Shown here in pieces: positions 9,865-27,900 of a DNA stretch of 64,000 nt. Position numbers and translations under genes: made by a program. The DNA comes from Sistotremastrum niveocremeum HHB9708 (Eukaryota > Basidiomycota > Agaricomycetes > Sistotremastrales > Sistotremastraceae), in assembly GCA_001630475.1 (NCBI GenBank), contig KV419399.1:1021599-1085598 (forward strand), read 5' to 3'. The notes beneath the pieces were generated by a model. That model saw nothing but the letters and a program-made list of their open reading frames with translations. It was not told the DNA's origin and did no database searches. Position 1 is the stretch's first letter. Each line of letters begins with the position of its first letter.

Positions 9865-10043
9865 ATGGCGCGATTCCGCCTTCGAACTCCGACGACATCC
9901 TTGCTCTCGTCTTTCATCCAAGCCAACGCTCTAGCTGCACTTACCCGCTTCCCGTTCTCGCACTCCATCTATATCGAGATCATCTTCAATGTCTACCATC
10001 CATTCGCTGTCTCTTATACCTCGCTCAGACCCGCAGCCCACCT
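9865..10043 (+). pseudogene. Possible host gene 5' part interrupted by the 17.5-kb element
   Basis: ATG 9865 has a good fungal context (CAAAATGGCG) and opens a frame of about 60 codons that runs into the left terminal repeat at 10,044. If the element and one ACCT copy are removed, the left flank joins the sequence starting at 27,504. A plausible intron (GT at about 9991, AG at about 10,029) would then keep the frame open through about 27,561. The protein is not recognised. Calling this one broken host gene is inference. It could also be a chance frame. Confidence 0.3.
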
Positions 10044-10073
10044 GTATGGCAAGCCGATGGTAAATTAAATACA
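10044..10073. repeat. Left terminal inverted repeat of the 17.5-kb element
   Basis: Starts GTATGGCAAGCCGATGGTAA and pairs with 27,470-27,499, with a single A/T difference at position 14. ACCT sits just outside at 10,040-10,043. Confidence 0.8.
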
Positions 10074-10089
10074 CGTCGGAATTTCAGTA

Positions 10090-10378
10090 CAACAGGTTGA
10101 CGGGTTACATAAAAAGTTACAGGTTGACACTATCACAGGTTGACAGGTTGAATATCAGGTACAGGTCAAAAATTTTACAGGTTGACAGGTCCAACAGGTT
10201 ACGAAATTGACGGGTTGACAGGTTCAAGATAGCCAACAGGTTCACACAACAACAGGTGAACAGGTCAAAAACAAATGACAGGTTGAGCATCAACAGGTAC
10301 ACAGGTTCAAAATACGACAGGTTGTGAGGAATGACAGGTTCACATGTCAACAGGTTGCGGGAATGACAGGTTCAGTTC
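10090..10378. repeat. Left subterminal ACAGGT array
   Basis: About 19 copies of ACAGGT (mostly ACAGGTT followed by GAC, CA or GA), plus ACGGGTT variants, at irregular 10-25-bp spacing. The right end of the element carries the complementary words. Such arrays are typical binding sites for a transposase near element ends; that function is inferred. Confidence 0.75.
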
Positions 10379-10623
10379 AATGGGGAACAAGCTAACACAT
10401 TTCGGAAAGTAGCCATGGATCTCACACTTGATTCCGCTGCCGCATAATCAGTACATATATCATTTGAATCTATCTTGATGATGTCGACGCGAACCGAGGC
10501 GAGACGAGATTCAATCGAACTCATGATGTCACATATCAGACTCATCAACACGTCATCGAGCTTATCGGACTTCCGTTTCATGATCCTCCGATGAGCCCGA
10601 TAGAGTATCCAGATGAGATTCAT
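10372..10623 (-). CDS. Small hypothetical protein next to the left array
   Basis: An 83-codon frame starting at ATG 10,623. The predicted product is charged and helical looking (RRIMKRKSDKLDDVLM, then SLICDIMSSIESRLASVRVD). Its end runs into the ACAGGT array. There is no recognisable domain and no supporting neighbour, so it may be an exon fragment or a chance frame. Confidence 0.3.
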   Translation of the reverse strand: MNLIWILYRAHRRIMKRKSDKLDDVLMSLICDIMSSIESRLASVRVDIIKIDSNDICTDYAAAESSVRSMATFRNVLACSPLN

Positions 10624-10880
10624 CTACGATTGGCCCCACCACAATCAAGATCTTAGCTCCAGGAACTGATCGGAAACACCATCGAATGAGAAATCAGAGG
10701 GTTACGCTTATTTCAATGCTTACAATGATAACGCCGCCAGGGGCACGGCTCGCGGCTCGGCTCGGCTCGCCCAGTATGAAATTTAGCCAGTCTAACGAAA
10801 AATCCTTTCCCCAAGTCATCGCACTTCTCCTCGTCTGTACTCTCCAAGATCCAACCCTTGTCATTTGACACTTTACTACA

Positions 10881-13800
10881 ATGTCTGAAGTCCCCTCCGA
10901 CGCCTACCTCATGCTTCTCGGCACTTGTCAGGTCCCCGGTTGTAAGGGGTGTTGTGGATTCACCCTCGATGTGAACGCACCGCTCCCTGCAAACCTCAGC
11001 AACAGCGCAATGGCGAAGGCAAAAATGAAGAAGTGTACGTGCAACCACTGCGCCGCTCAACACGAGCTTCCCTTTGAAGATTATTGGAAGCCATTCCTCA
11101 ATGAGGTCAGGAATTGCTAGACTTACCGAGATTTTACTGACGCGCCGTGCTCGCTTCGTATAGGCTCCCGCAGCCAAGGGCGAAGCAGAATCTTCCTCCA
11201 CGCCTAAGACTGCTTCAGCGGACGTCGCACCCGAAGCCGAAAAGGATACTGACGGCAAAGCCAAAGGCGAATCCAAGACCGAAGACTTCTTCGACTCTAT
11301 TCGTGCTCACGTCAGAGGGGGCCCAAAAGCTCGGGAAGCTACTCCAGGACCGTCCATCCCGAAGCAGCCAAAACAACATGCTACGCACGGAGCGGTGAGC
11401 CACTATATCTGTCATAACGAACGGCTACTCACCGAGAGGACAGTTCATGAATCATAAAATGGATTCCTCCGAAGACGAAGGATATCCTAACCTCAAGCGC
11501 GCTCGACCATCATCCGATGACTCTGACAGTTCTTCTGACTCCGATGACGACATTCCCCAAGCCAAGACCGCAAAGGGGAAAGGCAAAGCTAAGAACAAAA
11601 CATCAAGACCCAAGAAGCGCGCGAGGCAATCAGATCGACGCACCAAAAAGACTTCGAAGGCCAAATCCAAACCTCAGGCTGCGAAACCCAGAAAAGTCCT
11701 GTTCGCGTGGTACGAATTGGGCTCGGCCGTCGCGTCTGGTGACGCACTCGAGCCTACTAAGAAGCAGTGAGTATACTCAATTCATATCCATTCGATCTCA
11801 CTAACCATCACTTTCACCAGCTACTTCTCCCTCTCGGAGGCCCATCTCGTCGCCTCGGTCGACATACCAGGTGGCCCGGGACTCTCCAACAGCGAACTGC
11901 GGAATATCGTCCGGACGAAGTTTCGCCCTGCTCTTGAAGAAACCGGAATCCTCACGCCAAACGATAGCGAACGCTTTGAGTTCTTCGCACTCAAAGTCGA
12001 GTCCAACGGTCCTGGTGTGTCGGGAAGTCTCTTGCCCTGGCGGGATGGTCGACCATTGACCCTCGACGACCTCGATAATAAGGCTCTCGTCGTACGCCAT
12101 CGCCCTACGCAGTCCGGCAAGCTCATCTGGCTTGTCGCGCACGACAAGTATCCAGATGGCACTGTTGCCGATTATCAGCGTGTCCACAAGCAACGACGTG
12201 ACACCAATGAAGACCTCACACCTCCACCGCGACCCGACTCGCCTGATCATCGCTCTCCACCCTCTTCGCCGCTCTACAGAAAAGCCACCGACGAGGCTGA
12301 GCTCCCAAAAGCGAACAACAAGGATGAGTCTGCGCCGCATCACTCAGACCCTCTGCCATCGAAGACTCCAACCGATGCTCATTCAAAAGAGAAGGTAACC
12401 GGTCTCACACATTCTTCATGCCCCGAGTTGACACATACATAGAAGCCGAGCGTGCGCGACGATATGGAGGATGACTCGGACACCGAGGATAACATGGACA
12501 TAACCGACGATGAGACCAGTCGCCCTCGCGAACTGAGATACGTGAACGTCAGTGGGGTGGAAAGACTTCACAGGATTTTGCAAACAATCCGGCAGCCATC
12601 AGGAAATCCAGGATGGGTACGTATAAGTTTGAAATGATGGGCATCATCTGGTTCTTTCACTCATCATGTTCCCAGTACCCCGCTCAAGCGACAGGGCCCG
12701 TATGGACGAAGATCATTCCTATGCTCGACAAGGCCGCCGCTCTATTCGAAGGGGCAAAGGTATCTCACGAGGAGCATGGCGCGAAGCTCAGGACTTCCGA
12801 TCACGTCGAGGAATGCTGGCGATATGTGAATACGGTGCTCCTCCCGGCGATCGAAAAGATTCCAACGATCTCATCTGAAGAACGCATGGAAGTAATGACT
12901 ATGGGTCCATATGGGTTGCATAAGCTGGCAACTTTCTTATACGATTGGTGTCGGTTCATGAATCAGCGGCGCATCCGAAGGATGTGTTTCCGACATCTTG
13001 TGATAAGCTCTGCTACTCTGATCTGGGCGGAGTTCCTCTCCAACCAACTAGTAGATGTCGTTAAGAATGAACTGGAGTTTCGGACTCGATTCTATATGGA
13101 TCACTACGCATTTCAAGACTTGTATTGGGTATGGGATCGAGTGAGCCCCCTCCTTCCGGTAAGGTTCATCTCGTCTTCAGACTAGCTTGAGCTCGCTAAC
13201 ATGTCCAAGACACCTAGTATGAAATGGACTTCGATCAGCGTCAAAGACATCAGTCGCTCAAGCCCCGAGCAATTACTTACGGCATTGGAGGAAGACTATG
13301 ACTTCGACGAGAAGAAGAAGAGCATCGGCGTGCATATGTTGTCGTGGGACCGAACGAACCCTCGATCATCCTATCCTGGTCTATTCACCTTCTGGATCCG
13401 ACCTCTCCTCCGTGAGATGTCAATGGATGACCCTCGATTCGATCGGTTCTTTCAAATCTTTGTTACGTTTGCCGAAGCGCTCAGCAAGGCTCTGTCTATC
13501 TTCGAAGACGTAAGTCGGTCACTTGACTAGACTTCAGTGGTACTGATGGCGTCTTTAACAGGATCACATTATGAATGAGAACCTCAAATCAAATAAGGAA
13601 CGGGAGGACAAGAACACGACAAATGGCAAGGGGAAGGGGAAGGAAAGGAGGTGAGTGCAGAGCGACACAACCCAAGTCTCTCATCTGAATAATATATTCC
13701 AGCGCTCGTGGTTTCGAGTACATGGAGATCGATTCGTCCGACGACGATGTCACCGACACTCCCAGCCCCCGTCCCACCAAATCAAAAGCCGGACCGTCGG

Positions 13801-14344
13801 GTTCCAAACCCAAATCGAAGACCAGTGCACCACCGGACAATCAAGGTGAGGGGTCCAGCGCCGGTCCTTCGACGTCCGGGGGGGATGCCAACCAGAATCT
13901 CCCACGTCGTTCGCGAAGAGCTCACGTCGAAACCGCAGCGATGATCGAAGCCACGGAGAGCGAGCTTAGAGATCAACGTCGGCTGTGGGAGGCAATGACG
14001 GTATATAATATGGCGAGGAAGATCGTGTCTACATATCGACATCCTGATCCCGCTCGTGCACGCGTCTTTGACCTGATTCCCGCAGATGCGCAAGGCAATC
14101 ATCGGCCCCCAAGACCTCATCCGACTTGGAGTCACGATGTTCAGAAGAAGGCAATAAAACAACTGTTACTCGTCAGTGTTCATTCATAATTAGGGCGACT
14201 GCATCTTACTTACACGTTCTGATGTTCCACCAGATCTATCATCCTGACCGGAATCCCCAGGTCAATCTGCAAAAGCCACAGACGTGGCCGATCATATGCC
14301 ACGTCATCACCCAGGTGCTCAACGCTCGGATGGCGCTCTTGTAG
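10881..14344 (+). CDS. 992-aa cargo protein with C-terminal J-domain-like segment
   Basis: Ten exons join in one frame: 10881-11105, 11164-11394, 11444-11766, 11821-12394, 12443-12616, 12676-13158, 13210-13509, 13562-13650, 13703-14171 and 14234-14344. All introns are 48-62 bp with GT and AG ends. The N terminus has clustered cysteines and histidine (CQVPGCKGCCGF, then CTCNHCAAQH), suggesting a zinc-binding module. Next come acidic and lysine-rich low-complexity stretches (DDSDSSSDSDDD, KGKGKAKNK), then a longer ordered region over exons 4-7. The last two exons give KKAIKQLLL-IYHPDRNPQ with WPIICHVITQVLNAR, which resembles helix II, the HPD loop and helix III of a DnaJ domain. It could act with Hsp70 or in nuclear complexes. 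The family is not recognised. The open frame across ten exons argues for selection, although the gene lies inside a mobile element. Confidence 0.75.
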
Positions 14345-15401
14345 GCGGTGGAGAAGGTGTTCCAGGTGTCGTGTAGGAGCCTGGTAGTCCGCTTTCGAGG
14401 ACCACGGACGCTGGTAGTTACAAGTCAGATGTTGTTCTGATTGGCCGCTTAATCAACTCACTCATCGTCGAGTCAGCACGATATTTTGTAGACCAACGTA
14501 GTTTCGTAGCTCAAAAACTCCTAAATCATGATGAGTAAGATGGCGTTTGGACATTATGGGGACGTACAGGTGTGGAGGGGCGTTGTTCAATGATGATGAG
14601 GCTCTTGGCGACTCCTGTCGCACGAGTGACGTCTTGACATCCAGCCTTGAATACCGTTACAATCCAGTAAGTGTATTCAAGGTCGATGATAGCCACCGCG
14701 AAGCTTCGAATGCCTGCACATCAGAGGTCATTTGCAATTCTGAGTGCAATACTGAAACGCTTTACCATACGAAGATTAAACGGACGACTACCACATTCCG
14801 TCGTACTCTCTTGAATTGGATTGCCCCTCTGCTCTGAACGGTTCTGCAATCGTCAGTATAGCACTGTAACGATCATGAGTAATGACTGACCTGGCATATC
14901 GGGGTGGAATGAGCATTGAAGATGAGAGCGGACTTCAATTCGCCGCGTGGAAGCGAACCGCCTCCGGCGCTACTTGCAAGTACCAGTAGGGAGTAATTAT
15001 AAGCTGTGAAGAATCCAATCAGATCCCAATAGATATGTAGTACTGCAATATAAAATGAGTTTCATAATGATAGATTCACATGAGGTCGCGTTCATCCACC
15101 ATGCCAACCTAGAAGTTATCTCAAACGATTTTCCTTCCACGGTTTGGTGATTATCAATACTTATCATAGTCTGGATTGTTGAAAGCGGGCTTAGGAAGGT
15201 TCGTTCGCGATGATGAACGACTGATTGATACCAACGTAGAATACTAAGAACATGGCTACACAATCATTAAGCAAATGACACCGAAAACTACTAAGAAATT
15301 CGGGCTTTGGTACATCCAACCTCAAATCCTCCACCCAATTCGACCTTCAAAATTTGCAAATTAATTCTGCTGCAAGGAAACACACGGCCAATCCCGCTCT
15401 T
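14345..15401. other. Non-coding-looking stretch with one hairpin copy
   Basis: No supported gene was seen. A 96-codon frame at 14,547-14,837 and a minus frame at 14,997-15,263 look random. The stretch holds the first copy of the 18-nt-core hairpin (14,645-14,682). Confidence 0.4.
14645..14682 (-). other. Hairpin copy 1 (core in reverse orientation)
   Basis: Arms CCTTGAATAC (14,645-14,654) and GTATTCAAGG (14,673-14,682) are perfectly complementary over 10 bp. They enclose the core CGTTACAATCCAGTAAGT, the complement of the core at the other four sites. Within the core, TTAC and GTAA can form an inner stem. Confidence 0.75.
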
Positions 15402-17389
15402 CTATCCATAGAAAAGCGGGAGTCTGGACGGCACAACAGGTACTTGTCCAAATGTTTCGGCGTATCTTGCGCAAAAGAAGGCCGAGATCTCCTGTTGTTT
15501 CGCTCGGACATCCCGTATCGAGTTCAACTCAACATTTTCCAACAAAGGGTATTTGAGGACATCCGGGGGGTGAGGCCAATTTTGCATGACTTCGCTGGCA
15601 GCATTGAGCGCGGGAACCGAATAATGCCAGATTGTAGAACCGATTCCACAGTCGAGGTGCGGGACAGCGGATAGATAGAGGTCGTTCTCTGTCGGAAATG
15701 AGCTCCAGATATCCAGGACTCGCCGTTTGCGTTTCTGTTTCTCTTCCAACGTCAATGCAACTGTATTTGCAAAGTGTTCCTCCAGCCGAAGAAACGAATA
15801 ACGAAACGCCAACTCATCAAGTTCCCATAGAACAAGTCGGTGAGTGCGTATGTTCTCCTCTTCATGCTGAGAGTCCAGACGATATTGGAACCAAGTTAGG
15901 GAAGCCAAGTCGGCGATGGAGTTGTATGTCGGAACGCCTTCTGGGAGCATGCTATGCATTACTTGCAGAATCTGATGCGTAAATGTTTTCCGAGTAGCCT
16001 TAGAACCTTGGTGAGCTCGCTCGGGTTTCAACAACGGACCGCGTTGTGGTGTATGACTCAAAAAGTCCTTCCATTGTTGGGCAGTGAAGGAAATCTCGGC
16101 CGAATTGTGGGTTCGAACATAAACCAACCATTGAGATCGCACCGACAGCCAGTTCACTACGAACCGCAACCGCTTCTCCGCGGCGACTGTGGCAAAGGCT
16201 TGAGATGGGGGGAAAATATATTGGTCCGGGGCACGCGTTTCTGTTTTCGGTCGTGTAGCCTGGCGTTGCTGAAGCTCGTATGCTCGAGCTTCACCCCATT
16301 CAGGAATTGCCAAGGGGGGTTCAAATGTCGTCGATGAAGGGGCAGGACTCGATTGTTCATCGAAGTCGGACAAATCTAATGTGCTCGAAGACGGAGCGCT
16401 TGAGTGAACATGATCTGCGGGAACGTTTCGATTGAGCTTCTATTAAGACAGCGGGGTTCAAGAATCTCACATGGTCGAGATGAGCGCGTCGAGGATTCAG
16501 GACCGTCGTTAGTGAGCGGCGTATGTCTCTTCAACAATGGTCGAGGTTTGACGCGTGTTCCCAGTTCGGTGCGAGAGGTAGTCGGCTCCAGTTGCACGAC
16601 GTGCGCGTGTGCGTCGACGAGGAATAATTTGTCGAACTCATATCGGCATTCAAGATAGCGACTATCAACAGCAGAATAGGAACCCAAATAGGGGAAGGGA
16701 TCGAATGATTGTCGATCGTTGCTGAAGCGAAATGGGACAATGGGGGCTTCTATCAGATCTGGCGATATCTCTAAGACCTTTAACCCGATGGGAGGATGCT
16801 CTGACTCAATCGTGCTCCATATTGGGATGTGGTACCAAGATAAAAAGCCTATAACATGTGGATCATTCGAAAATGACCCGATCCAGTGGCTCGTGTCTGC
16901 GTTGCGGGTGGCATGGTTATCGCGGGGATCCAGGGAGAGTCTCATATACTCTCCCATTCCCGCCACCTCTAGCCAATATCGTTGAATCTCGCCCCAACAT
17001 CTCAATAAGTCTTGCCAGTTCATGAACTGATCAAGCTGGACCTGTCGGCTACGCATACGATTCACTAGAAAGAAGAGATGCATCAAGTACTTCTGAGTAC
17101 ACCACGTGCGTACATGGATGAGCAGCTCGTCGATCATCCACGATAGATAGTGAATCGAGGAACTCATGCGTTCGCGAGGGGATGATTGAAGTCTTCGCAA
17201 TACATGAGCATGTCCCTCGCGCTGATCGCTTTCGGTTTGAGAGGGGTCGAGTTCAGACCATATTACGGAGTGTTCCATAAATGTCGGGTGGATGGATGTC
17301 GGGATAAATGGAAGATGTGGGAATGGGGCGCAAAACCACTGAGCCGTAAGGGTGTGGTCTGCATGGCCAAAATGGCCATCAGATCTCAT
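15402..17389 (-). CDS. 643-aa uncharacterised cargo protein
   Basis: Two exons (17,389-16,471 and 16,414-15,402) separated by a 57-bp intron with GTGAG and GCAG ends. The junction gives an unbroken frame (RP-YHVHSSAPSSSTLDLSDF). The product is rich in tryptophan, histidine and tyrosine, with a globular first half (about residues 45-210), a proline/serine linker around 260-340 and a second globular, helical half ending LPLFYG. I see no signal peptide, membrane segment or known catalytic motif. It is convergent with the ten-exon gene on the left. Keeping a 640-codon frame inside a mobile element suggests function for the element or recent arrival. Family unknown. Confidence 0.7.
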
Positions 17390-17985
17390 GCGGACCTCCC
17401 CCTCTAGAGGCGGTATCGCACGAGCAATCTCAGCGTTAGACGAGACTATCCATACTCGATCTGATGCTCGAGCACAAATCGTGGGGGTAGGGACGGGCGG
17501 ACCTGTGACTGGTTAGAGATGATAGCATCTGGTATGAGCCTCGTCGAAAAGACGTACCTTCTACATAATACATAGATTGAGCACTGAACAGACTCCCAGT
17601 GTCCATAGTAGACTTTAGTATCCTCGTTAACGTCTTTCGTTTGTGGTCTCGAGTACACTGATGACGCCGCGGATCACTGTTCGACGATCGGGGGGGGCAC
17701 CAAAGTAACTTAGCGCGATCCAATCCAGGATGTCACTAAGTCAACTTCGATGGAGCTGGGAATGTCTGCAATCCAGAGTGAACTTGACGATACTTGATCG
17801 AGAGTTTCGGTTCCGTGTACCGCTTCCGATCGACTCACCGCCGGGCGCTAATGAGCTTTGGTTCAGCCCGCCAACGCAGAGTCAATCGTCCGCTCAGTGA
17901 TGTCGCTGGTGTAGTGTCTCTAGTAAGCTCTGAAGCTATGTCAATTCATCAGCTTAGATCTAATTGACCTCAGTAGGCCTTCAAA
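17390..17985. other. Stretch without a supported gene
   Basis: It contains a minus-strand frame at 17,436-17,723 with no recognisable features. Nothing else stands out. It is probably shared upstream DNA between the minus gene at 17,389 and the small plus-strand gene after 18,000. Confidence 0.3.
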
Positions 17986-18344
17986 CGAGCGAACTTTGCC
18001 AATTTTTGGGTTTGGAGACCGGCGGGGGCACACTTACTGGATTGTAACGGTGTCCACGTTGGTTTCTTTGATTATCTTTCTCGGTCTGCATTGTCTTTTG
18101 AACTGGGTGAGTCAAACCGTTCATCAACCATTATGCATCTGACTTAAGGCGGGCTCAGAAGCATCGTTCGAAGCGCTATGCAGACGAATTGAAGCGTTTG
18201 AGGAAATGGACTAAAATTGAGGTCGAGCATGCAACAGAGCTCGAACAGCGCGTCAGAAGGACCAGGGAAAGTCTGTGTCTCGTCGAGTTCGTCCTCGTTC
18301 ATGCTGATACTGATGCAACAATACGCCAGCTGGGAGGCCTCTGA
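17986..18344 (+). CDS. Small putative one-helix membrane protein
   Basis: A frame open from about 17,986 reads through the hairpin core (HTYWIVTV) into a strong hydrophobic helix (STLVSLIIFLGLHCLLNW). It is spliced at 18,107-18,158 (GTGAG to CTCAG) into a basic, coiled-coil-like tail (KHRSKRYADELKRLRKWTK) that stops at 18,342-18,344. The topology would be a short N terminus, one membrane helix and a cytosolic basic tail. No start codon was fixed; an upstream exon is likely. Family unknown. The hairpin overlap may mean that the reading frame is secondary. Confidence 0.4.
18026..18055 (+). other. Hairpin copy 2
   Basis: The core ACTTACTGGATTGTAACG at 18,032-18,049 is flanked by GGGCAC and GTGTCC, six pairs including one G-T wobble. 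Confidence 0.65.
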
Positions 18345-18767
18345 AGGCCTCTGAGACCGCTCAAGCTCCTTATTCGAAAGAGGTCTGAATATCAATATCA
18401 GTGTCGTTGTCTACAATGATATGGTGCTCAATCAGTGTACCACCCAACATGCTCGAAGTCTGCACGACGGTGCCGTTACTTTGCTTGCCCGGATCGACAG
18501 CTTATGGTACAGATACTTTGTCCGTCGCAGATCTTTTCTAACACGTCCCCAAAGCCCGACAGGTGTAGCTTGATTCAATGAATGTGCCTCTGTCACTTTA
18601 CGCCATCTATACTAAATTCGAGAAACAACACTGGACTCGATCTTCCATCGAAACGACTCAGGTTGGGAAACTTGGGTCGTTTGACGGCAATGATGTATCA
18701 TCCTATGGTTGGATTACACATTTCTCCATGGGATGGAACCAAAGTTTGTTAAGTTTTATTTCGATTG
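18345..18767. other. Stretch without a supported gene
   Basis: No reading frame with recognisable features was found on either strand. Confidence 0.3.
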
Positions 18768-19157
18768 CTATATCATCGAGTTCCTGGCCTGTGTCCGTTT
18801 TCTTGAGTGCGAACTCTTGCCTGTGACGCAATAAGGACAGCTTGACCCGGGTTTGGGCCCAGACCTACCACTGTTCAGGAACATAGACGATGATGCAATC
18901 ACTGTCATCGTTGTAGGGCTCCGCAGAGCACATTTGTTCCAAATCAGTGGCTCGGCAAACTCAATCAAACGTTGTATCCAACTGCATCGCGATCCTCGCC
19001 TAGAGTATCCCCAACGCCGTTCCTGATTATAAAGTCTCAGATTTTCATGTAGCGTAACATGTTTCATTGCGTCCTTGGTCTCCGCCTGAACATTTATAAC
19101 TGAGAGTCTTGTGTGCTGACTTCGTGAACCGCGTTCTGCTAGCATCGAATCCTCCAT
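18700..19157 (-). pseudogene. Possible decayed gene
   Basis: From ATG 19,157 a frame reads MEDSMLAERGSRSQHTRLSV and onward. A second frame just downstream looks coding (EPYNDDSDCIIVYVPEQW, stop TAG, then VWAQTRVKLSLLRHRQEFAL). The two frames do not join with any good intron, and an in-frame TAG separates two segments that read naturally as one protein. This fits a broken gene. Exon guesses are weak and the family is unknown. Confidence 0.3.
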
Positions 19158-19741
19158 ATTTCGTCCTCTAGCTTATCTGCCGAGGTCGCCTTATCACCTC
19201 GCTAATGCTCGCTTGTCTCTGATGGATCATGTGCCGAGGAGTCTAGTCGTGCTCCAAAATAGCAGTTTGCCCGCATTCAGGCACGGACAGGACAACCCTC
19301 AAGATTGAACTGCTCCCGACGGCATCTCGCAGCTCAGCTCTCACCAAAGACTGCAACAGACAGTGCTGGCGCAGATTCTAACATCACTTGGGGGAGGGGA
19401 TTGACTTGAATGTCTTTTCGGCTTCCGGCTCTTTTGTGCTCCACGAGAGACTAGAGCGTCCGTCGCTTCCTTATCATCGCGCAAGTGCTTTCCATCAGAA
19501 ATTAGGCTGTTTCAAGGGGTCACAGCACCCTGATCAGTCTGGACATGCCGAAACGCAAATTGTTTGGGGTGATATGAGTGTGGGGTCCTCTCAGCTGTCA
19601 GAGTCGGAGCTCCCCGCCTCTCTCTCTCTCCCCACCACCCCTTCGCTGCTACTACACTCCATTTCCTTCGTCGTTCCTCTAAGGTGCGTACATTGTGCAC
19701 CAAGTTGTCAATTCTTTCACTTATTTGCTCAAATTAGACCC
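19158..19741. promoter_or_regulatory. 5' flank and leader of the proline-rich gene
   Basis: Pyrimidine-rich DNA precedes the ATG. A likely leader intron runs from about 19,683 (GTGCGTAC) to 19,737 (ATTAG), just upstream of the start ACCCATGGC. Confidence 0.35.
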
Positions 19742-20307
19742 ATGGCATCTCCTCCCATCCCTCGGATACCTCTCGTTCGATCTCTCGACAACGCTCCTCT
19801 CCCTCCCCCACGTCTCGCCACCCCGCCAGACAGTCTCTGCTCCTTATTTCAATCCCTGGCTTGGGATATCTTATTCATCATCGGTCACATTGGAAGGATC
19901 TTGTTCCTCCTCGTCTGGCATTCTGGCTGTCTGCTGAAGGAGAGTGCGACTACTGGTACGATTAACGGCCTCATCCACGGCATGGGCATTGCATTGAACG
20001 TCGGTCCGGTTCAACCCCCTCCCTTGCGTCACGTCACCGCCTTCGAAATGGTCCGCCCCCCTCCTCCTCCCGCGCCGCCTGTCGCACCCTTGCCTGATGT
20101 TCGCTCACCCGTCGCATCTACGAGTGCATTGCCTCCCCCGGTTCCCGTCCATGCCGAAGTTGGCCCGGAGATCCCACCCCCCACCCCTCCTTCTTCACCT
20201 GGCCCCGACGCGCCGAGTCCCATTGTTTTCGCGAGGGGCCTACTCTTCAACCACGTCGAAGTCATCCCGAACGCTGGGAATACGATCGAAATCTCCGATT
20301 CGGATTC

Positions 20308-21127
20308 GGATTCAATAAGGATGAACACGAGTATAGCAAAAAAATTGGTACCCATGGATAAACCTGAGTAGGTACCTGCCTTTTTCATTTTTTACAGGTA
20401 CCGAGTATTGGCTTTCCCAGAAAAACTGTCAAAAACAGGTATCCATACCTGGGGTACCTGGGTAAAAAGGCCATTTTACTCAGGTATTACTCAGGTAGGT
20501 ACCCGTCTTTTGGGAAGTGAGTGGGTATGGCTGGCCAGAATTTCCTCTGAAATACTCATGAGTGGATGCTCAGGTGGGGCAGGTATATACTTAGAGTTCC
20601 AAGGTCCAGTCCACGTGACTGGTCGTATTGGGCAACCGGACCGAAGTCGCGACTGGACTGCAGTTGCCGGTTGCCTGATTTTCAGAAAATCAGGCAACCG
20701 GCAACCGCAGTCATGACCAGTCGTGACCATGGTCGCGACCGATGCTCAGGGAAGACCCTTAAGGGTCCCCAACCAGGGTGTTCAGAGGGTCATGTGGTGG
20801 TATTTTCCCCATGTATGAGCATGTATTCATGGTATATGATGTATATACAGTATATATATGATCAATAGACACCAATAGACTATATATAAGAGGGTAAAAC
20901 AATATATTAATCAATAAAATATTACATTTATAGGGCAGGCAACTGGTCGTGACTGGTCATTTGATGACTGGTCGCCGGACCGTGACTGCAGTTGCAGTTG
21001 CCAGTCATGGACATTTTGGAATTTGGCAACCGGTCGCAGTTGCCAGTCACGAGGAATTTTGGAAAAAGTCCAGTCGTGACTGGACTTTGGAACTCTATAT
21101 ATACTCGTGTTCATCCTTAGGATTCAA
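20308..21127. mobile_element. hAT-like TAAGGATG element (outer) with 8-bp target duplication
   Basis: The element spans 20,316-21,119. Terminal inverted repeats TAAGGATGAACACGAGTATA are perfect over 20 bp. The 8-bp duplication GGATTCAA lies at 20,308-20,315 and 21,120-21,127. Without the nested insertion it is 290 bp, non-coding and rich in GGTACC. The end sequence and GGTACC content match the element at 23,785-24,286, so they form one family. An 8-bp duplication points to the hAT superfamily. Confidence 0.9.
20584..21105. mobile_element. hAT-like TAGAGTTCC element nested in the outer element
   Basis: The element spans 20,592-21,097 (506 bp). The ends TAGAGTTCCAAGGTCCAGTC and the complement of TAGAGTTCCAAAGTCCAGTC are inverted repeats with one mismatch. 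The 8-bp target duplication TATATACT lies at 20,584-20,591 and 21,098-21,105. The interior is non-coding, rich in GACTGG/CCAGTC words, and contains a long perfect palindrome around 20,660-20,705 built on TTGCCGGTTGCCTGATTTTC. It is a different family from the outer element and must have arrived later. Confidence 0.9.
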
Positions 21128-21739
21128 GCCTGGGTGTCGAGATTATCCCAACGTAAGTCTCGACCGATTACTGCATGTCGCACATCGATTAACATCTACT
21201 CATACAGCTTTGGCATTGATGCACCTATGTATGCTAGACTCCCCCCTGTACAGGAGTGAGATCTTCCGAGGACCATACTAGTGTGCCAGTGTGAGAGTTA
21301 TCTGATTCCAGACCACCACAGATTTAATTTTCATTTAGGCTATTCGTTCAAGATTCGCCCTTTTTTTTCGTCGTATTTTCAAAACATTTCTTGTCTCTCT
21401 CGTCTGCCAAAATGTCCTGTTGCCCTTTGTCCTCCCTTTCACATTCTGAAGTGCGCAAGCACATTTTCCAATTCTTTGCTTTTCCTATCTTACTCGCCAT
21501 TAAATACGGCATCATATATTCCTGATAACTATGTCATCGACTTTATTGAATGTTAAGAAACAATCTGAGATTTGTTGGAACATGATTTATTCTGAGTGAC
21601 GCAAGATTACTTGGACAGAGGCTTCCCTTCCGCCTCGACTGCCTTTTCGTCCGAGTCGTTCGGAACTTCGAAGAGCCTCGGGGAGAGACTCAGACTGGAC
21701 ACCGTACGATATCCTCACAGCGTCGCTCGAACACGTGTA

Positions 21740-21776
21740 CCTCTAGACACTTACTGGATTGTAACGGTCTATGAGG
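21740..21776 (+). other. Hairpin copy 3
   Basis: The core ACTTACTGGATTGTAACG at 21,749-21,766 is flanked by CCTCTAGAC and GTCTATGAGG: five pairs, one bulged T, then four pairs. Confidence 0.65.
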
Positions 21777-22459
21777 CACTACTACTGTCGATATCGCTCC
21801 TCCTATGATTGTCTATCTGACCGCATTAGTCCTTTGTCAGCATCGATACGATTTCTGCACATTCCGCTGAGCAGGCTCATTTTCATCACGTTCATACACC
21901 AAACTCTGGCCAGGATTTCGAAACTCTGTTTGGTTGATAAGCAGGACAAAGGTTTTGCAGGGGGCTTAGGGTGTGCGGAGCATTCTTGGGACGTTCCCAA
22001 CTTACCGCTGTCAGCTTCGTCTCCTCACCATCGCTCCGCTTAGTCCAACCATGACGATTCTACGACGCTACGTTTTACTAATCTGTGCACTCAGTATCTT
22101 GCGCAGTATGACTTAATCGAACCGTCAACTGAGGGAATGAATATCTAAAACGAAGGACTCAACCTACTCGTTGCTTCATCTCGCACCTGACAGCCCGACA
22201 ACTATAACCGCGACCGTCTGTGTCCTGCGAAGCTTCGTTGGAGACCCCAGCCTGAGATGTTGATACTTGATACTGTCAGAGTGTCTTGCGGACTCGGAGT
22301 GTGATCTATGGTACTCGATTGACCAAACGTATACATCAAGCTAAGATATTATCTTTCGACGCCACTCCCCCACGCATCTAATACCCCACTCTTTCAAGCG
22401 CTGCCTTGTCGATCCGTCCACTTCACCTGCCTAAACTCAAGAATCGGATCGATCTGTGG

Positions 22460-22493
22460 CCATAGACACTTACTGCACTGTAACGGTCTAAGG
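22460..22493 (+). other. Hairpin copy 4 (variant loop)
   Basis: The core is ACTTACTGCACTGTAACG at 22,468-22,485, with the loop changed from TGGATT to TGCACT while TTAC and GTAA are kept. Flanks CCATAGAC and GTCTAAGG give five pairs, one mismatch and two pairs. Confidence 0.6.
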
Positions 22494-23156
22494 GAGGGGT
22501 TTCGTGATCCTTATCTTTCTGCGAGTGGAAGAGTACGATCCCATTGGTAGCACACCATTGATCTATCCATATGCAGATGCGGTTGCAGGGTGTCTTCTGT
22601 CGACGCTTGAAATAAAGCATTCTTACGCCGCTGCCGTTGACTAGATGATATACTTGTATCAATGTTGATCGCCTATCTCAACTAGTGTATACCTTTTGCA
22701 TCTCCAAGTCATCACACTTCCGGACCAACTGATGACTTGCAGTCGAAATATCTATATTCTCATCGAACAGTCATGTTCATACGATTCTTATGCGATTGAA
22801 ATTGAAGAAGTCCATGTTCTGTCGTGATCATACATTTCTACGAATAATATTTAATGAGAAACCACACATAAATTTGCTTCCGATGCCACGTCGCCCTTGT
22901 GCCCGTTTACGTCAAGTGCAAACCCTAATTCGGTACCCCGAGCCGATCGAATGATTTTGCTCCCGCGCAGTCACACTCATCCACGATCACGGATGTTCCA
23001 TGTCCAGTCGTGTGCGAATTAGCGTAACCTCTGACTTAACCCTCTATGTGACAGATCTAGCTCTGAATCCACTGGTAAGTCTTGAGCTATGCGATCGTGG
23101 GCCCAATCTCAACGAATGTTCGAAGCCGATGATCTTGAAAACGAACGATTGTAGGT

Positions 23157-23192
23157 CTTGCGCACACTTACTGGATTGTAACGGTGCCCAAG
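23157..23192 (+). other. Hairpin copy 5
   Basis: The core ACTTACTGGATTGTAACG at 23,166-23,183 is flanked by CTTGCGCAC and GTGCCCAAG, eight pairs with one C-C mismatch. Confidence 0.65.
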
Positions 23193-23454
23193 TGCTACAA
23201 CGGTCTTCAAGAACCGCCAGTCCATCAGCTTTGCAAGAATGCGACTCGCATACGGCAAGAAAGACCAAGAAACCGAAATACTACAAGAGAATATCGCTCG
23301 TCCCAGATGCCATACTGGTTTGATCCACCCATAAGCCGATCCCTCTGCCCTCGCATCCGTGGTAAGCGCATCTGATCATTCTCTAGTCTATGTAATTCAA
23401 TCTGAGAAACAAAAGGGGCGTTGTGTACTGTACTTGTATAGGTGTGAAACACGA

Positions 23455-25579
23455 CTACATATTTTCTTTCGCTCGCCTTTCAGCTCGAGCGTAAGCCTTG
23501 AGCTTAATGACGGCCGCCTGGAATATATTCTGACCTAGATTTCCGTCGTCTGCACGTAAGTCCATGTCGCTCAATGCATTAGCTGCCCATTCAACTGCTG
23601 CCGTATCATCACCCAGATTCTGACTGTGCGTCTCGGCATCTTCTTCATCGTCTCGGATTTCATCAGCTGGAGGTAACGGTGCGTATCCGTCGTATCCGTA
23701 CAACGATTGCTGAGAATCGTTGACAGTGTCGCCAGGGTCTTTGGTCCAATAGCCCTTCCTGATTGCGTCGTCCTTCGACCACTCTAAGGATGTTACGTGG
23801 GTTTTGGGTACCTGGGTACCCGCTGTGGGTACCCGAGATGCCAAGGTACCCAACATCACGGGTAACCCAAACCAATTACCCAATGGGTATGGGTCAAGCA
23901 CCTGGAGACCTCGGGTACCCGGCACAGGTGATTGGCTCATAGGATTGGCCCAGGCTCCAGACAGACCATCTGGTTAGAGACCCAGATGAAGAGTCCAATG
24001 AAGACAGAGTGCAAGGCAGTGATGATAAAGAAGACTCAGAGCACTCCAAGACATTTTCATGGATATTTTATATTAGTCCTATTGTAGGTACCTTGAAAAT
24101 ACCCAGGTACCTTTGCAGGTACCCTCAAAATACCTGGGTACCAATCACCTGAGGGTCACCCAATACCCGTCTGGTATACCTGTGGGTATCAGGTACCTGA
24201 AGTGTAATACCCAATGGGTCAGGGTCAAGGTTTTGAGAATTTTTCAGGTACCCAATACCCACTGGTATACCCACATAACATCCTTAGACCACTCCCACAA
24301 TCCCTTCGGTGAGTTGTGTTTTTCGGTCCGAATCGGGTGGTGATTATGGGCTAACAGTGCGCTATTAAGCATTCTTTGAATGCGGCGGTGATAGACGAGC
24401 CAGAGGCATAGACGGTGGATCCGCTTCTCGGGATGTAGAATGCCCTGTTCTTCCATGCGCAAAAATAGTTGGCGGAAAACTTCAAGGGCCTCTTTGCGGA
24501 CATCACGCCACATCCTCTCGATTCTCACGTTGTGAACGGAGCTGCAGCCTTCAAGTGAGCACTTATTTTCCGTGGCTTGATCGTGTTACTCACCGACCAC
24601 GAATATAGGCATGATGTGCTCGTCCCCAGTGCTCGATCATAAAATCCTCGACATCGTTGTTCTCTGTTCCGAAGTCTGCTCTGACACGACTAGGCATCCC
24701 GTATGTCTTGACCCCCCGTTTAAAGCAATCGAGAACGGTGTTGGCTAACTTGTTATTACGAACTTCTAAATAGATAGCCAGTCGAGAATAACCGTCGACG
24801 CATCCATGCACGTAAAAGCCCCAGGGCTTGAGCTTTTCGTTCCCATCCATATGCCAGAGCGCGTTCGCTCCGCGCACTCTGTAGACGCGTCGTTTAATCG
24901 CCCTGGCAAATCTGAAGTCACGGTAAGACGATGACCACCAATGTCGGCTACGAACGCACCTCATACGAACTCCCAGGTGATCGACACGATGCAGACTTGC
25001 TCTCAAGCGCCATCGAGGCACTCGTATATTGCGACCCCTCAGGTAGCCTTGGACTATACTCTGTCCTGCAAAAGGATGGTCCTGACAGTATGACAGGACA
25101 TGTGAATCGAGGGTGTTGTCGTCGATGGTGGTGAATCGGTCCTGAAGAAGCCCGGCGTCTTTGAGATGATTATACAAGGTTTGTCTAGTGACATTCATGC
25201 GCTCAGCAACCTCACGCCAGGAATGGTTGCTAGAATTGTATAGGTGGATCGCTTTTTCGAGGTCTAAGATCGCCGAAGGTCGACCGCGCCGTCCGGTGTG
25301 GTGAAATTCTGCTGCGTATTGCGCAGGAGGGATTTCTAGAGTATTCAACGCTCCAAGAATTCCCGTGACCTTGTCGATGAGCTGATCGTATAGTGGCTCA
25401 ATGAGTCGAGGATGTTGTATGTTTCTGATGACGCCGAGAAACGAGTGAAGTTTTCGCACATGAATCTCGATGTCCCAATACTGAACACGAGGAACACGAT
25501 TTAGGAGAGATTCGGCGTCTCGACATGTCTCTGCAGCATCTGCCAACAAAGCATCAAGCACCTCTGTAGGTGTGCTCAT
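23455..25579 (-). pseudogene. DDE integrase of the 17.5-kb element, split by a MITE
   Basis: Retroviral-type integrase-core (DDE) protein expected to cut and join the element ends. The start at 25,579 gives MSTPTEVLDALL; an in-frame upstream ATG is less likely. After a helical N-terminal part comes a helix-turn-helix (RRGRPSAILDLEKA, SWREVAERMNVTRQTLYNHL) and then the catalytic core with D in WHMDGNEKL, D in VRADFGTEN and E in SVHNVRIERMW. The VRADFGTEN D and the E lie about 35 residues apart. An intron at about 24,593-24,540 separates RG-R from SVHN. In exon 2 a 502-bp MITE with an 8-bp duplication enters at EWSK. Past it the protein resumes (KDDAIRKGYWTKDPGD) and ends KENM, stop 23,455. The insertion shifts into a stop, so this copy is probably inactive. 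The family resembles basidiomycete integrase-core proteins related to Ginger or gypsy integrases. Confidence 0.8.
23777..24294. mobile_element. hAT-like TAAGGATG element inside the integrase gene
   Basis: The element spans 23,785-24,286 (502 bp), with inverted ends TAAGGATGTTACGTGGGT and its complement (one mismatch). The target duplication GACCACTC lies at 23,777-23,784 and 24,287-24,294. The interior is non-coding and filled with GGTACC/GGGTA words. It shares ends and composition with the outer element at 20.3 kb. Confidence 0.92.
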
Positions 25580-26299
25580 TGCGGCGAAGGGAAGTCGATG
25601 TTGACGATGAATGCAGCGGAGGTTCGCGCGGATGGTCAACTGGATTTGGAAATGCTGCACTAAAGTGCCCAGCCAATCGGTGATAACAGTACGCAAAAAG
25701 AATCTTCTTTTCATTCTTTTTCTGATAACGCTTAACTGCAGAAGACTTTATGCGGGGGAAGAGGCAAATATTCAAAAAAACTCAAGAAGAATACGCTCAA
25801 CATTCAAATCATATATTCTATGGGAGTCGCCTCCTTCAGCTGAACAAGATTATGCGTTGCATGCACTCGTTCAGAGTTTCGCTTTCGCCTGAGGCAGATC
25901 CGTAAGTGTGACTGGCCGATAAAAACATCTGGGAAAATTACCTTGATAGGATCACACCGCTTCAGAGGATCGCGGTTGCGTGATGCATCATCAGGACCTC
26001 GAAGGCTCCATGAGAATGGCTTCAAGCGATGTTCGCCGTCGAGGAACCAGATCGGATTGATGCCTGTGACTTTGTAAGTCCGTGCCTTTCTTTGCTGAGG
26101 AATACTGCATTGAAAATGAGTCCTTGTCACCAAGAATTTGGTCAAAGCAATCACTGACTTGGAGGAGCTCATGATCTGGCAAACAAAGCAGAGTAATCGA
26201 GACTGTAATCGAGGTGGGTGCTATTGACTTGCTCATTTGGCGGCGTGGTTCTCTCTTAGCTTATAGACAGATTCCATAGAAGCCTTATCAGGCGCTGGC
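25580..26299 (-). CDS. Uncharacterised exons upstream of the integrase
   Basis: Two overlapping readings look partly coding. From ATG 26,236: MSKSIAPTSITVSITLLCLP. From ATG 26,172: RTYKVTGINPIWFLDGEHRL and onward to DPIK, with a possible donor at about 25,944. They could be separate small genes or later exons of the gene starting at 26,705. There is no known domain, and the exon structure could not be settled by eye. Confidence 0.3.
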
Positions 26300-26705
26300 T
26301 TAATTACGATCGTGATCGAAAGAAAGCATTCGGTGGTGCCTAATTATCGCGTGATCAACGCACGAATGGAGTTCCGGAAATGCAATCCGTTCACTCGTTT
26401 CTTGCTCGTGAGTCTGACTGATACTAAGTAAACCTTGATGAAAATTGATGGCTGCCGGGCAGACATATCTGTTCTGAGGGTTGAGAAAGCCTTGAATGAG
26501 TAATTCTGCGGTCGCTGTGGAGTCAGTCTTCCGTGGAAATCGGATCAGGTTGGTGGTCCTGATCTAAGGTACAATGGAAATTCAATCTTCCATAGGAACG
26601 CTTGGATACGTCGGGTTTCTGTGCAGAAGGACACAGTGATGAGAACGCGACGGCAGATCCATCCCGCGGTCGTTTGGGCTTCTTATTCTGCATTGACGGC
26701 GACAT
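26300..26705 (-). CDS. 115-aa hypothetical protein in the mobile element
   Basis: Two exons, 26,705-26,573 and 26,514-26,300, with a 58-bp intron (GTACC to CACAG). The product starts MSPSMQNKKPKRPRDGSAVA, suggesting a basic nuclear-localisation-like segment, and continues FHSTAELLIQGFLNPQNRYV to a stop at 26,300-26,302. Alternatively the end is spliced on into the frames below 26,250. It lies head-on upstream of the integrase in the same orientation. Family not recognised. Confidence 0.45.
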
Positions 26706-27071
26706 GAGCTGCACTGATTATACGCTCGCTGTAGTCAACAGGTCAGTGCAGAACATCGAACTCCGTGCCAGAAGATGCTGAATATTGGGCAGAGTTATTG
26801 AGTGCCGAGCGCGAAGCGAAGGGCGGCAAGGACTTGATAAGGATCTTAGATTAATATTTTCTCGATCTAGATTGATATGTGCACGATCGATCGCAATCTC
26901 CGTTCGGATTGTGGGGTGATACTTCTGACACTGACTTGATGCTAAGATGAATATCAGGTTGAGCAACAATCTCGGCGATTAATGAGGAAGATCTTCGGCA
27001 GCGCTGGGTTCACGATGAAGATCATGATCAAAATATACAGTGGATGAGCTAATCGAAGAGTTCTATGAGTC
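26706..27071. other. Stretch without a supported gene
   Basis: A minus-strand frame of about 80 codons is present but has no features. It is probably the promoter side of the 26,705 gene. Confidence 0.3.
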
Positions 27072-27469
27072 GTTTTGCGGACCGGTGAACTTGTGAAACT
27101 GTGACCCGTCGGGAATCAAAACAATGAACCTGTCACTGCGCGGAACCTGTCATCAACTTGCAACCCGTCGACCTGTCAATTCTCCAACCCGTCACAAATT
27201 TCCAACCTGCTAACCCGTCAAAATCTGAACCTGTTGTGATTTCCACCCGTTAAATTGCGGACCCGTCATCCAAGTTACCTGTTGTATATGGAACCTGTAA
27301 TGAATCCCACCTGTTGCAATTTAAACCTGTCACGCAACTCAATGACCCGCACCTGTTGCTTTCTCAACCCGTTCCAAACTTGATGCTTGTGAACCTGTTG
27401 TTCACCAACCTGTAATAAAAAGCGTGAGAAAACTCAACCTGTTTGGAAATTTGAGTGAACCTGTGAACC
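27072..27469. repeat. Right subterminal ACCTGT/ACCCGT array
   Basis: At least 14 ACCTGT words plus about eight ACCCGT variants at irregular spacing, complementary to the ACAGGT array at the left end. Same likely role as transposase-binding sites. Confidence 0.75.
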
Positions 27470-27499
27470 TGTATTTAATTTACCAACGGCTTGCCATAC
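27470..27499. repeat. Right terminal inverted repeat of the 17.5-kb element
   Basis: Ends ACGGCTTGCCATAC at 27,499, the complement of the left terminal repeat with one mismatch. ACCT follows at 27,500-27,503. Confidence 0.8.
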
Positions 27500-27503
27500 A
27501 CCT

Positions 27504-27900
27504 GAAATCAAGAAGTCGTCGCCTGTGTTGCTGAATATCGGTCAAGTCGTGCCGGAGCCCAATCGTGTAGTACTCATCAATCAGTATGTTTTCTCGCATC
27601 TTCTTTATCTTCATTCACTGAGAATATTCTCTTCTCGACCAACTACTCGCCCCAATCTCTTTTACTCGCTGTGCCCAGTCTATCGCCTAAGTGTAAGTGT
27701 TGTCCATAGCTTTTGATCGTGGCTCACAAGTTCACGTGTTCCTAGATCGTCGTGACCTATCTGAAGGTGCCATCCGTTCTCTCGATGCCTGGATTCACAC
27801 AGTACAGGTTTGTCTACCAGCTTTTCTAATGTTCAACGCGATATTGATGTTCCAGCGCCAGATTCTGAAAACAGCTTTGAGAAATCCCAGTCAGTAGCCC
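27504..27900 (+). pseudogene. Possible 3' part of the interrupted host gene
   Basis: A frame from the element border reads EIKKSSPVLLNIGQVVPEPN up to a GTATGT donor at about 27,562. Later short pieces (LDRRDLSEGAIRSLDAWIHT, 27,740-27,806) also look coding, followed by GT-AG-like borders and a stop near 27,897. I could not join all of these into one frame. They may be exons of the host gene that begins at 9865. Family not recognised. Confidence 0.3.

Follow-up and report, generated by a model that had tools for sequence, protein, structure and literature searches.

A probable family of single-strand hairpins in an IS3EU transposon and at other loci of Sistotremastrum niveocremeum

Results

Six hairpins in one transposon

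In the 64,000-nt stretch of Sistotremastrum niveocremeum HHB9708 DNA analysed here (contig KV419399.1, positions 1,021,599 to 1,085,598 of the forward strand; hereafter the window, numbered from its first letter) lies a large DNA transposon of the IS3EU type that carries six short hairpins, named s1 to s6. Each hairpin is predicted to fold into a variable outer stem, an internal loop of two by two bases (5' AC, 3' CG), a 4-bp inner stem and a loop of six bases. Five of the sites had been noted before from the letters of the window alone (the original prediction). All hairpin evidence is drawn from this one genome. The element and its hairpins are:

10045..27498, no strand assigned: IS3EU DNA transposon carrying the six hairpins, 17,454 bp
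14641..14686, minus strand: hairpin s1, core 14655-14672; outer stem of ten perfect pairs, or of 14 positions when two G.T and one A.C are included
17702..17747, minus strand: hairpin s6, core 17716-17733; missed by the original prediction
18014..18067, plus strand: hairpin s2, core 18032-18049; up to 18 outer-stem positions, five of them G.T and one a mismatch
21740..21776, plus strand: hairpin s3, core 21749-21766; five outer pairs, a one-base bulge and four more pairs
22460..22493, plus strand: hairpin s4, core 22468-22485; its loop is the variant TGCACT and its outer stem the weakest among the six
23149..23200, plus strand: hairpin s5, core 23166-23183; outer runs of four, four and six pairs around two interruptions

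The cores of s1 to s5 were found where they had been placed, four as exact 18-mers and s4 with two changes in the loop. Only 0.05 matches to the 18-mer are expected in the window by chance, and five were reached in none of 100 shuffles. The block common to the five sites extends to 22 nt, ACACTTACTG(GAT, in s4 CAC)TGTAACGGT, and the predicted fold consists of the outer stem, the internal loop with AC opposite CG, a TTAC/GTAA inner stem and the hexaloop. The pairs next to the constant AC/GT are T-A, C-G, G-C, G-C and C-G in s1 to s5, just as had been claimed, and pairing does continue outward from there; the claimed length of four to eight positions is too short for some stems, since at s2 as many as 16 of the first 17 positions pair, four of them as G.T. 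Compared with 20,000 random positions, the outer stems of s1 to s5 gave p values of 0.0001, <0.00005, 0.0023, 0.018 and 0.0002 with the constant AC/GT pairs included, and 0.00095, 0.00015, 0.023, 0.094 and 0.0024 for the variable part alone, so that s4 is weak by itself. The folding energies of the core strand, expressed as z scores against shuffles, were -4.6, -5.3, -2.2, -0.3 (-0.33 for the 66-nt fold of s4) and -3.4. In an alignment of the five sites 78.2% of the pair cells are paired, against 34-43% with the partner slid, and double changes are found at 12 of 22 pairs.

The sixth hairpin was found by scanning the window for the architecture with the stem sequences left free, a scan that placed s6 and known sites near the top of its list. 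It retains the hexaloop TGGATT and the AC/CG internal loop exactly. The inner stem, by contrast, reads ATCC/GGAT, and the outer stem, with 13 of its first 14 positions paired, is unlike that of the other sites.

Seven relatives elsewhere in the genome

The 34.7-Mb genome was scanned for the 18-mer with up to two mismatches and for the 22-mer with up to three (three loop positions masked, 19 specified). Apart from the five sites this gave matches on contigs C43, with four outer pairs and a broken inner stem, and C60, where the outer stem is nearly absent. The claim that all copies lie inside the element is thus borne out for the TTAC core in these scans, bar C43 and C60, and fails for the hairpin family, which has seven members elsewhere.

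These were reached through ACNNNNTGGATTNNNNCG, which has 65 matches in the genome. Ten of them have a full inner stem: s6, four of the TTAC sites, and a new 18-mer, ACGCTCTGGATTGAGCCG, that is present in five copies (contigs C10, C19, C39, C63 and C89); the 55 lacking a full inner stem were left out of the flank examination. A genome search for ACGCTCTGGATTGAGCCG with up to three mismatches returned 30 matches, five exact and two with one mismatch (on C12 with loop TGGACT and on C21 with loop TGGAAT), and the flanks of these seven were examined, the 23 loci at two or three mismatches being set aside. A looser loop scan (184 genome matches) added one further candidate, C15:573673, among the matches listed, which come from contigs C1 to C21; members that combine the loop TGGACT or TGGAAT with another inner stem may thus have escaped it. 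The loop TGCACT was covered genome-wide by the two mismatch scans of the 18-mer and the 22-mer only.

The eight further loci were thus chosen by their core letters alone, and at seven of them the outer flanks are complementary (p 0.0001-0.012). All seven (L061, L062, L063, L064, L065, L067 and L068, each taken with 151-181 nt of sequence) have a third inner stem, GCTC/GAGC. The eighth, C15:573673, has the core letters and an inner stem (with one G.T) and no outer stem. We attribute this last match to chance. Together the 13 sites are spread over eight contigs, six of the sites lying in the one transposon. Their hexaloop reads UGGA(U/C/A)U, and UGCACU once.

Fisher's combination over six of the outside loci (L064, a near copy of L062, left out) gave 1e-10 on the assumption of independence. 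This overstates the case, because L062 and L064 are 90% identical over 124 nt, L067 and L068 are alike beyond the hairpin, and the outer stems of L061, L062/L064, L065, L067 and L068 are alike, with only L063 unlike the rest. Even related stems can differ pair by pair, as in GACTGCC/GGCAGTC of L067 versus GACTACC/GGTAGTC of L061.

Covariation and the folding strand

Across the 13 sites 83.7% of the pair cells are paired and the covariation is 0.827, compared with 28-44% and 0.11-0.23 in slid controls, which preserve the relatedness among the sites as the shuffles do not. The alignment holds 74 double-changed cells and 45 further pair types, and none of 500 shuffles was as high on paired cells, double-changed cells, further pair types or covariation. 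Double changes occur at 15 of 16 pairs, which was equalled in 10 of 500 shuffles. As some of the sites are related by descent, these p values overstate independence. A C-G pair closes the hexaloop at every one of the 13 sites.

Counts of G.T against A.C in the outer stems of 12 sites (L064 left out) were 15:4, 19:9 and 14:3 under three scorings, with one-sided p values for the G.T excess of 0.0096, 0.044 and 0.0064, respectively; over the first 12 outer positions of all 13 sites the count was 20:10. The excess favours the core strand as the strand that folds, and we regard it as a modest sign of this.

Searches for the motif in known RNAs, viral sequences and related transposons

Rfam 15 gave no match at the gathering threshold in the whole window, and at E<=1 nothing fell on the hairpins between 14500 and 23400; sub-threshold microRNA-like matches at 20634-21049 lie off the hairpins, inside a nested insertion. 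On L061 to L065 the only match was H19_2, on L062 and L064 and far under its threshold. A search of IMG/VR for the TTAC pattern, in which any letter was allowed at three loop positions, gave no match, and the GCTC core was found on one contig, L066. This candidate was rejected as it reads as coding (TLWIEPG) and has two C-G pairs with no further outer stem. Its score with search model R2 was 27.7 bits (E 1.2e-5), so about 28 bits from R2 are insufficient in the absence of an outer stem; the six window members score 42-53 bits and the other listed window matches at most 10.4.

Related transposons were covered mostly over about 3.3 kb around the transposase, and over up to 30 kb at five loci. 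Within these limits R2 found no hairpin in related transposons in 40 sources (228,872 bases), its three matches there being L066, L069 and L006, none of which is a related transposon. Model R1, run on 293,952 bases from 43 sources, the window among them, gave no further member and only a partial match of 11.3 bits; since it was built on five sites and does not list s6, its silence is weak evidence and R2 is the better test.

The carrier and its genes

The other features of the element are:

10039..10044, no strand assigned: left target-site duplication CACCTG, read directly
27499..27504, no strand assigned: right target-site duplication CACCTG, read directly
24244..25747, minus strand: transposase gene region; its rva_4 (PF24764) integrase core falls into two pieces
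20316..21119, no strand assigned: nested inverted-repeat insertion, ends TAAGGATG..CATCCTTA, 8-bp duplication GGATTCAA
23785..24286, no strand assigned: second nested inverted-repeat insertion, same TAAGGATG..CATCCTTA end motif, 8-bp duplication GACCACTC, within the transposase gene
15402..17606, minus strand: open reading frame ORF3 (SISNIDRAFT_464014), ATG at 17606; modelled first intron 17557-17509, where the NCBI protein differs slightly
18113..18745, plus strand: degenerate Crooked-neck/CLF1 splicing-factor gene fragment

Published descriptions, as far as the parts drawn on here go, define IS3EU elements by a 6-bp target-site duplication, terminal inverted repeats of over 30 bp, TAYGG..CCRTA ends and an rva_4 transposase (PMC12730594, PMC10045372). 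The element in the window has the 6-bp duplication; its 34-bp arms, of which 32 bp lie within the duplications, are 94% complementary and end in TATGG..CCATA; its IS3/IS481-like DDE integrase matches PF24764 above the cut-off (1.2e-33 and 1.1e-25) and PF00665 below it (3e-6). Judged by these sequence features the carrier is an IS3EU transposon. Arrays of an ACAGGTT-like subterminal repeat are seen at 10060-10400 and 27100-27480, in opposite orientation at the two ends. By DNA search the left end (10043-10400) occurs at a single genomic place and no second genomic copy of the region with s3 to s5 (21130-23440) was found. A genome search listed 45 rva_4 matches, grouped by eye into 20 loci, and among 12 word-matching stretches from an IMG/VR search for the transposase none encodes a relative. 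With two nested insertions, one of them in the transposase gene, the element is probably no longer autonomous. The first insertion also breaks a predicted proline-rich protein with a possible membrane segment (19740-21130, plus strand).

ORF3 encodes a predicted protein of about 670-700 residues that matches SISNIDRAFT_464014 at 96%, the gene models differing by small pieces and agreeing on the start MDTGSLF. Its sole other database match is a 31% paralogue of the same species; ORF3 belongs to no Pfam family, and a database search with one of its exons gave no match. The ORF3 start codon is preceded at about 110 nt by the s6 core, and the ORF3 stop is followed at about 0.72 kb by s1. At five of the 20 rva_4 loci, all outside the window, a relative of ORF3 is convergent with the IS3EU-type transposase, at a distance of 1.4 kb in four cases and 3.2 kb in one, while in the window both genes have the same orientation, so ORF3, s1 and s6 look as if flipped as a block. 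We infer that the six hairpins may ancestrally have lain on one strand.

Similarity to CLF1 starts about 50 nt past s2. The fragment aligns with its relative at C23:64400-66200 (L060) in stretches of 417, 78 and 59 nt with 67%, 88% and 76% identity, respectively, and it looks like a captured host gene. When the similarity was extended upstream across s2, 33% of shuffles scored as high, so that the extension lacks significance.

Discussion

On the evidence above, the 13 sites very probably represent one family of single-strand hairpins that are, or formerly were, selected as folded strands. We had been slightly more confident before taking into account that several sites share descent and that one of the eight further loci failed. 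There is good support for the suggestion that a folded single strand was under selection, as both stems are swapped with compensation while the unpaired letters are almost unchanged. Hairpins that a protein or ligand recognises, such as the iron-responsive element (IRE), show this combination of near-fixed unpaired letters and compensating stems. A reading to which we would give an even chance is that the hairpins are cis-acting RNA elements, binding a protein or ligand, that are carried by transposon transcripts and by those of some other loci. The bases of the loop and the internal loop would be the contacts for the partner, with the stems as scaffold. In the transposon a plausible role would be control of the translation or stability of ORF3 through s6 upstream and s1 downstream, the distance of s6 from the start codon making it a suitable place for translational control.

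Several observations weigh against a cis-acting RNA element. The hairpins s2 to s5 have no tie to a known transcript, and at s4 the outer stem is weak and the RNA on the core strand folds no better than shuffles. At L065 the outer stem is interrupted after only four pairs. The opposite strand of L063 (C39:144220-144395) resembles a retrotransposon aspartic protease (YDLILGTPFLYQH...), although this short piece has no Pfam match, and the hairpin there may be antisense inside coding sequence. The related transposons covered with R2 bear no hairpin. Among the distinct 18-mers matching ACNNNNTGGATTNNNNCG, 3 of 58 have an inner stem and 1.4 would in shuffles, which makes an inner stem no evidence when taken alone. 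Finally, the inner stem is constant within groups (TTAC five times, GCTC seven times), which is unexpected under pure selection for shape, the outer stems in the element being mostly unrelated.

This last point, constant inner stems per group with varying outer stems, means that the inner stem is perhaps read too, or that the cores spread by copying. The sequences suggest the former, with the inner stem as a class tag. An extension that we consider speculative and unlikely is a two-part code, in which the unpaired letters would mark the type of partner and the inner stem (TTAC, ATCC or GCTC) would tag the element or gene set. The transposon's own tags on its six sites would then place its transcripts or DNA under a dedicated partner; alternatively, the tagged cores would have spread as micro-mobile units.

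Copying leads to the strongest competitor of an RNA element, a function at the DNA level, which we hold to be possible and rather unlikely. The hairpins would serve as recognition sites of a recombinase or transposase in single-stranded or cruciform DNA, or the core would be a tiny mobile unit that makes fold-back arms on insertion. Cores that are constant per group with arms that differ from site to site in the element, the scatter over eight contigs with six sites in one transposon, and the proximity of s2 (about 50 nt) to a captured host-gene fragment would all be in line with this. A freshly inserted core, however, needs neither compensated differences in the inner stem nor near-fixed unpaired letters, and the bias of G.T over A.C also speaks against it. 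The similarity beyond the hairpin in L067/L068 and L062/L064 likewise indicates common descent and no independent insertion. The insertion into palindromes that had been offered as a second possibility in the original prediction fits poorly, since taken alone it accounts neither for the compensated differences among the inner stems TTAC/GTAA, ATCC/GGAT and GCTC/GAGC nor for the excess of G.T over A.C. Its proposal of a signal of that element alone has proved too narrow, given the seven relatives outside.

Known systems can be compared with the family. The IRE is described, in the part of the account cited, as a fixed six-nt loop CAGWGH on a 5-bp upper stem with an unpaired C and a variable lower stem, typically in untranslated regions (PMC12230718). 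The present family likewise has a fixed six-nt loop, a short upper stem, a fixed unpaired C and a variable lower stem. It differs in its loop of UGGAUU type (TGGA(T/C/A)T or TGCACT at all 13 sites, in place of CAGWGH), in its upper stem of 4 bp instead of 5, and in its symmetric 2x2 internal loop with letters fixed on both strands, where the IRE has an asymmetric C bulge. The IRE is tied to iron genes. By loop and by stem length the family is no IRE, for all its likeness in organisation. Integron attC sites also fold as single strands, with structure conserved above the sequence of the stem; unlike these, the family has its conserved letters at the hairpin tip.

Another known system is the recognition element of Smaug/Vts1, a CNGG loop on a non-specific stem; Smaug-type elements have loops of 4-8 nt on any stem, according to the portion of the source used (PMC4053848). 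When the closing C-G pair is opened and its C is taken as the first loop base, CUGGA stands at the loop in 12 of the 13 sites (CUGG and thus CNGG), and loop letters are fixed in both. We nevertheless consider this identity improbable from the sequences, since s4 has CUGC and the fixed AC/CG internal loop, the invariant closing G and the constant last U of the loop are not required by Smaug/Vts1.

Small-RNA precursors, in which Dicer would process the hairpins into guides from the variable arms, would account for paired, variable arms around a near-constant loop. Outer stems of 4-17 positions, as found at 12 of the 13 sites (21 at one, in the first G.T/A.C scoring), are short for Dicer, and a precursor needs neither a fixed internal loop nor a C-G closing pair, all of which makes such a function quite improbable.

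A peptide encoded by the core, on the core strand (TYWIVTV, TLWIEP) or the opposite one (GSIQSV in the GCTC group), is disfavoured by the sequences and very improbable. In its favour, none of the five TTAC sites has a stop within the core in the core-strand frame (at s4 one follows in the second codon past the core), and an opposite-strand frame of at least 38 residues runs through GS(I/F)QSV at four of the seven GCTC loci (L062, L063, L064 and L068). On the other side, the four core substitutions seen within the two groups, two of them in s4 and the others in L067 and L068, are without exception amino-acid changes in the core-strand frame, with no synonymous change among them; of two core-strand peptides tested one had no Pfam match and the other a sub-threshold one (Pox_A9, E 0.018); the matching opposite-strand frame of the TTAC group hits a stop within the core; and paired flanks are not predicted by a coding function.

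In a thin search of the topic literature, which is no proof of absence, the titles and abstract openings among the papers listed did not name the motif. The word "hairpin" is absent from the main text of two papers on IS3EU elements of fungi (PMC12730594, PMC10045372), while the carrier described here bears six. One survey of new fungal structured RNAs, judging from part of its text, was confined to Ascomycota and to annotated genomes chosen partly to avoid transposable elements (PMC8216456).

The family is larger than had been noted, with six members in the element and seven elsewhere and no Rfam match in the window or at L061 to L065. A hairpin class with near-fixed unpaired letters and compensating stems could serve directly as bait for the protein that would read it. 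If our interpretation is correct, a fungal DNA transposon would be using a structured nucleic-acid signal beyond its terminal repeats.

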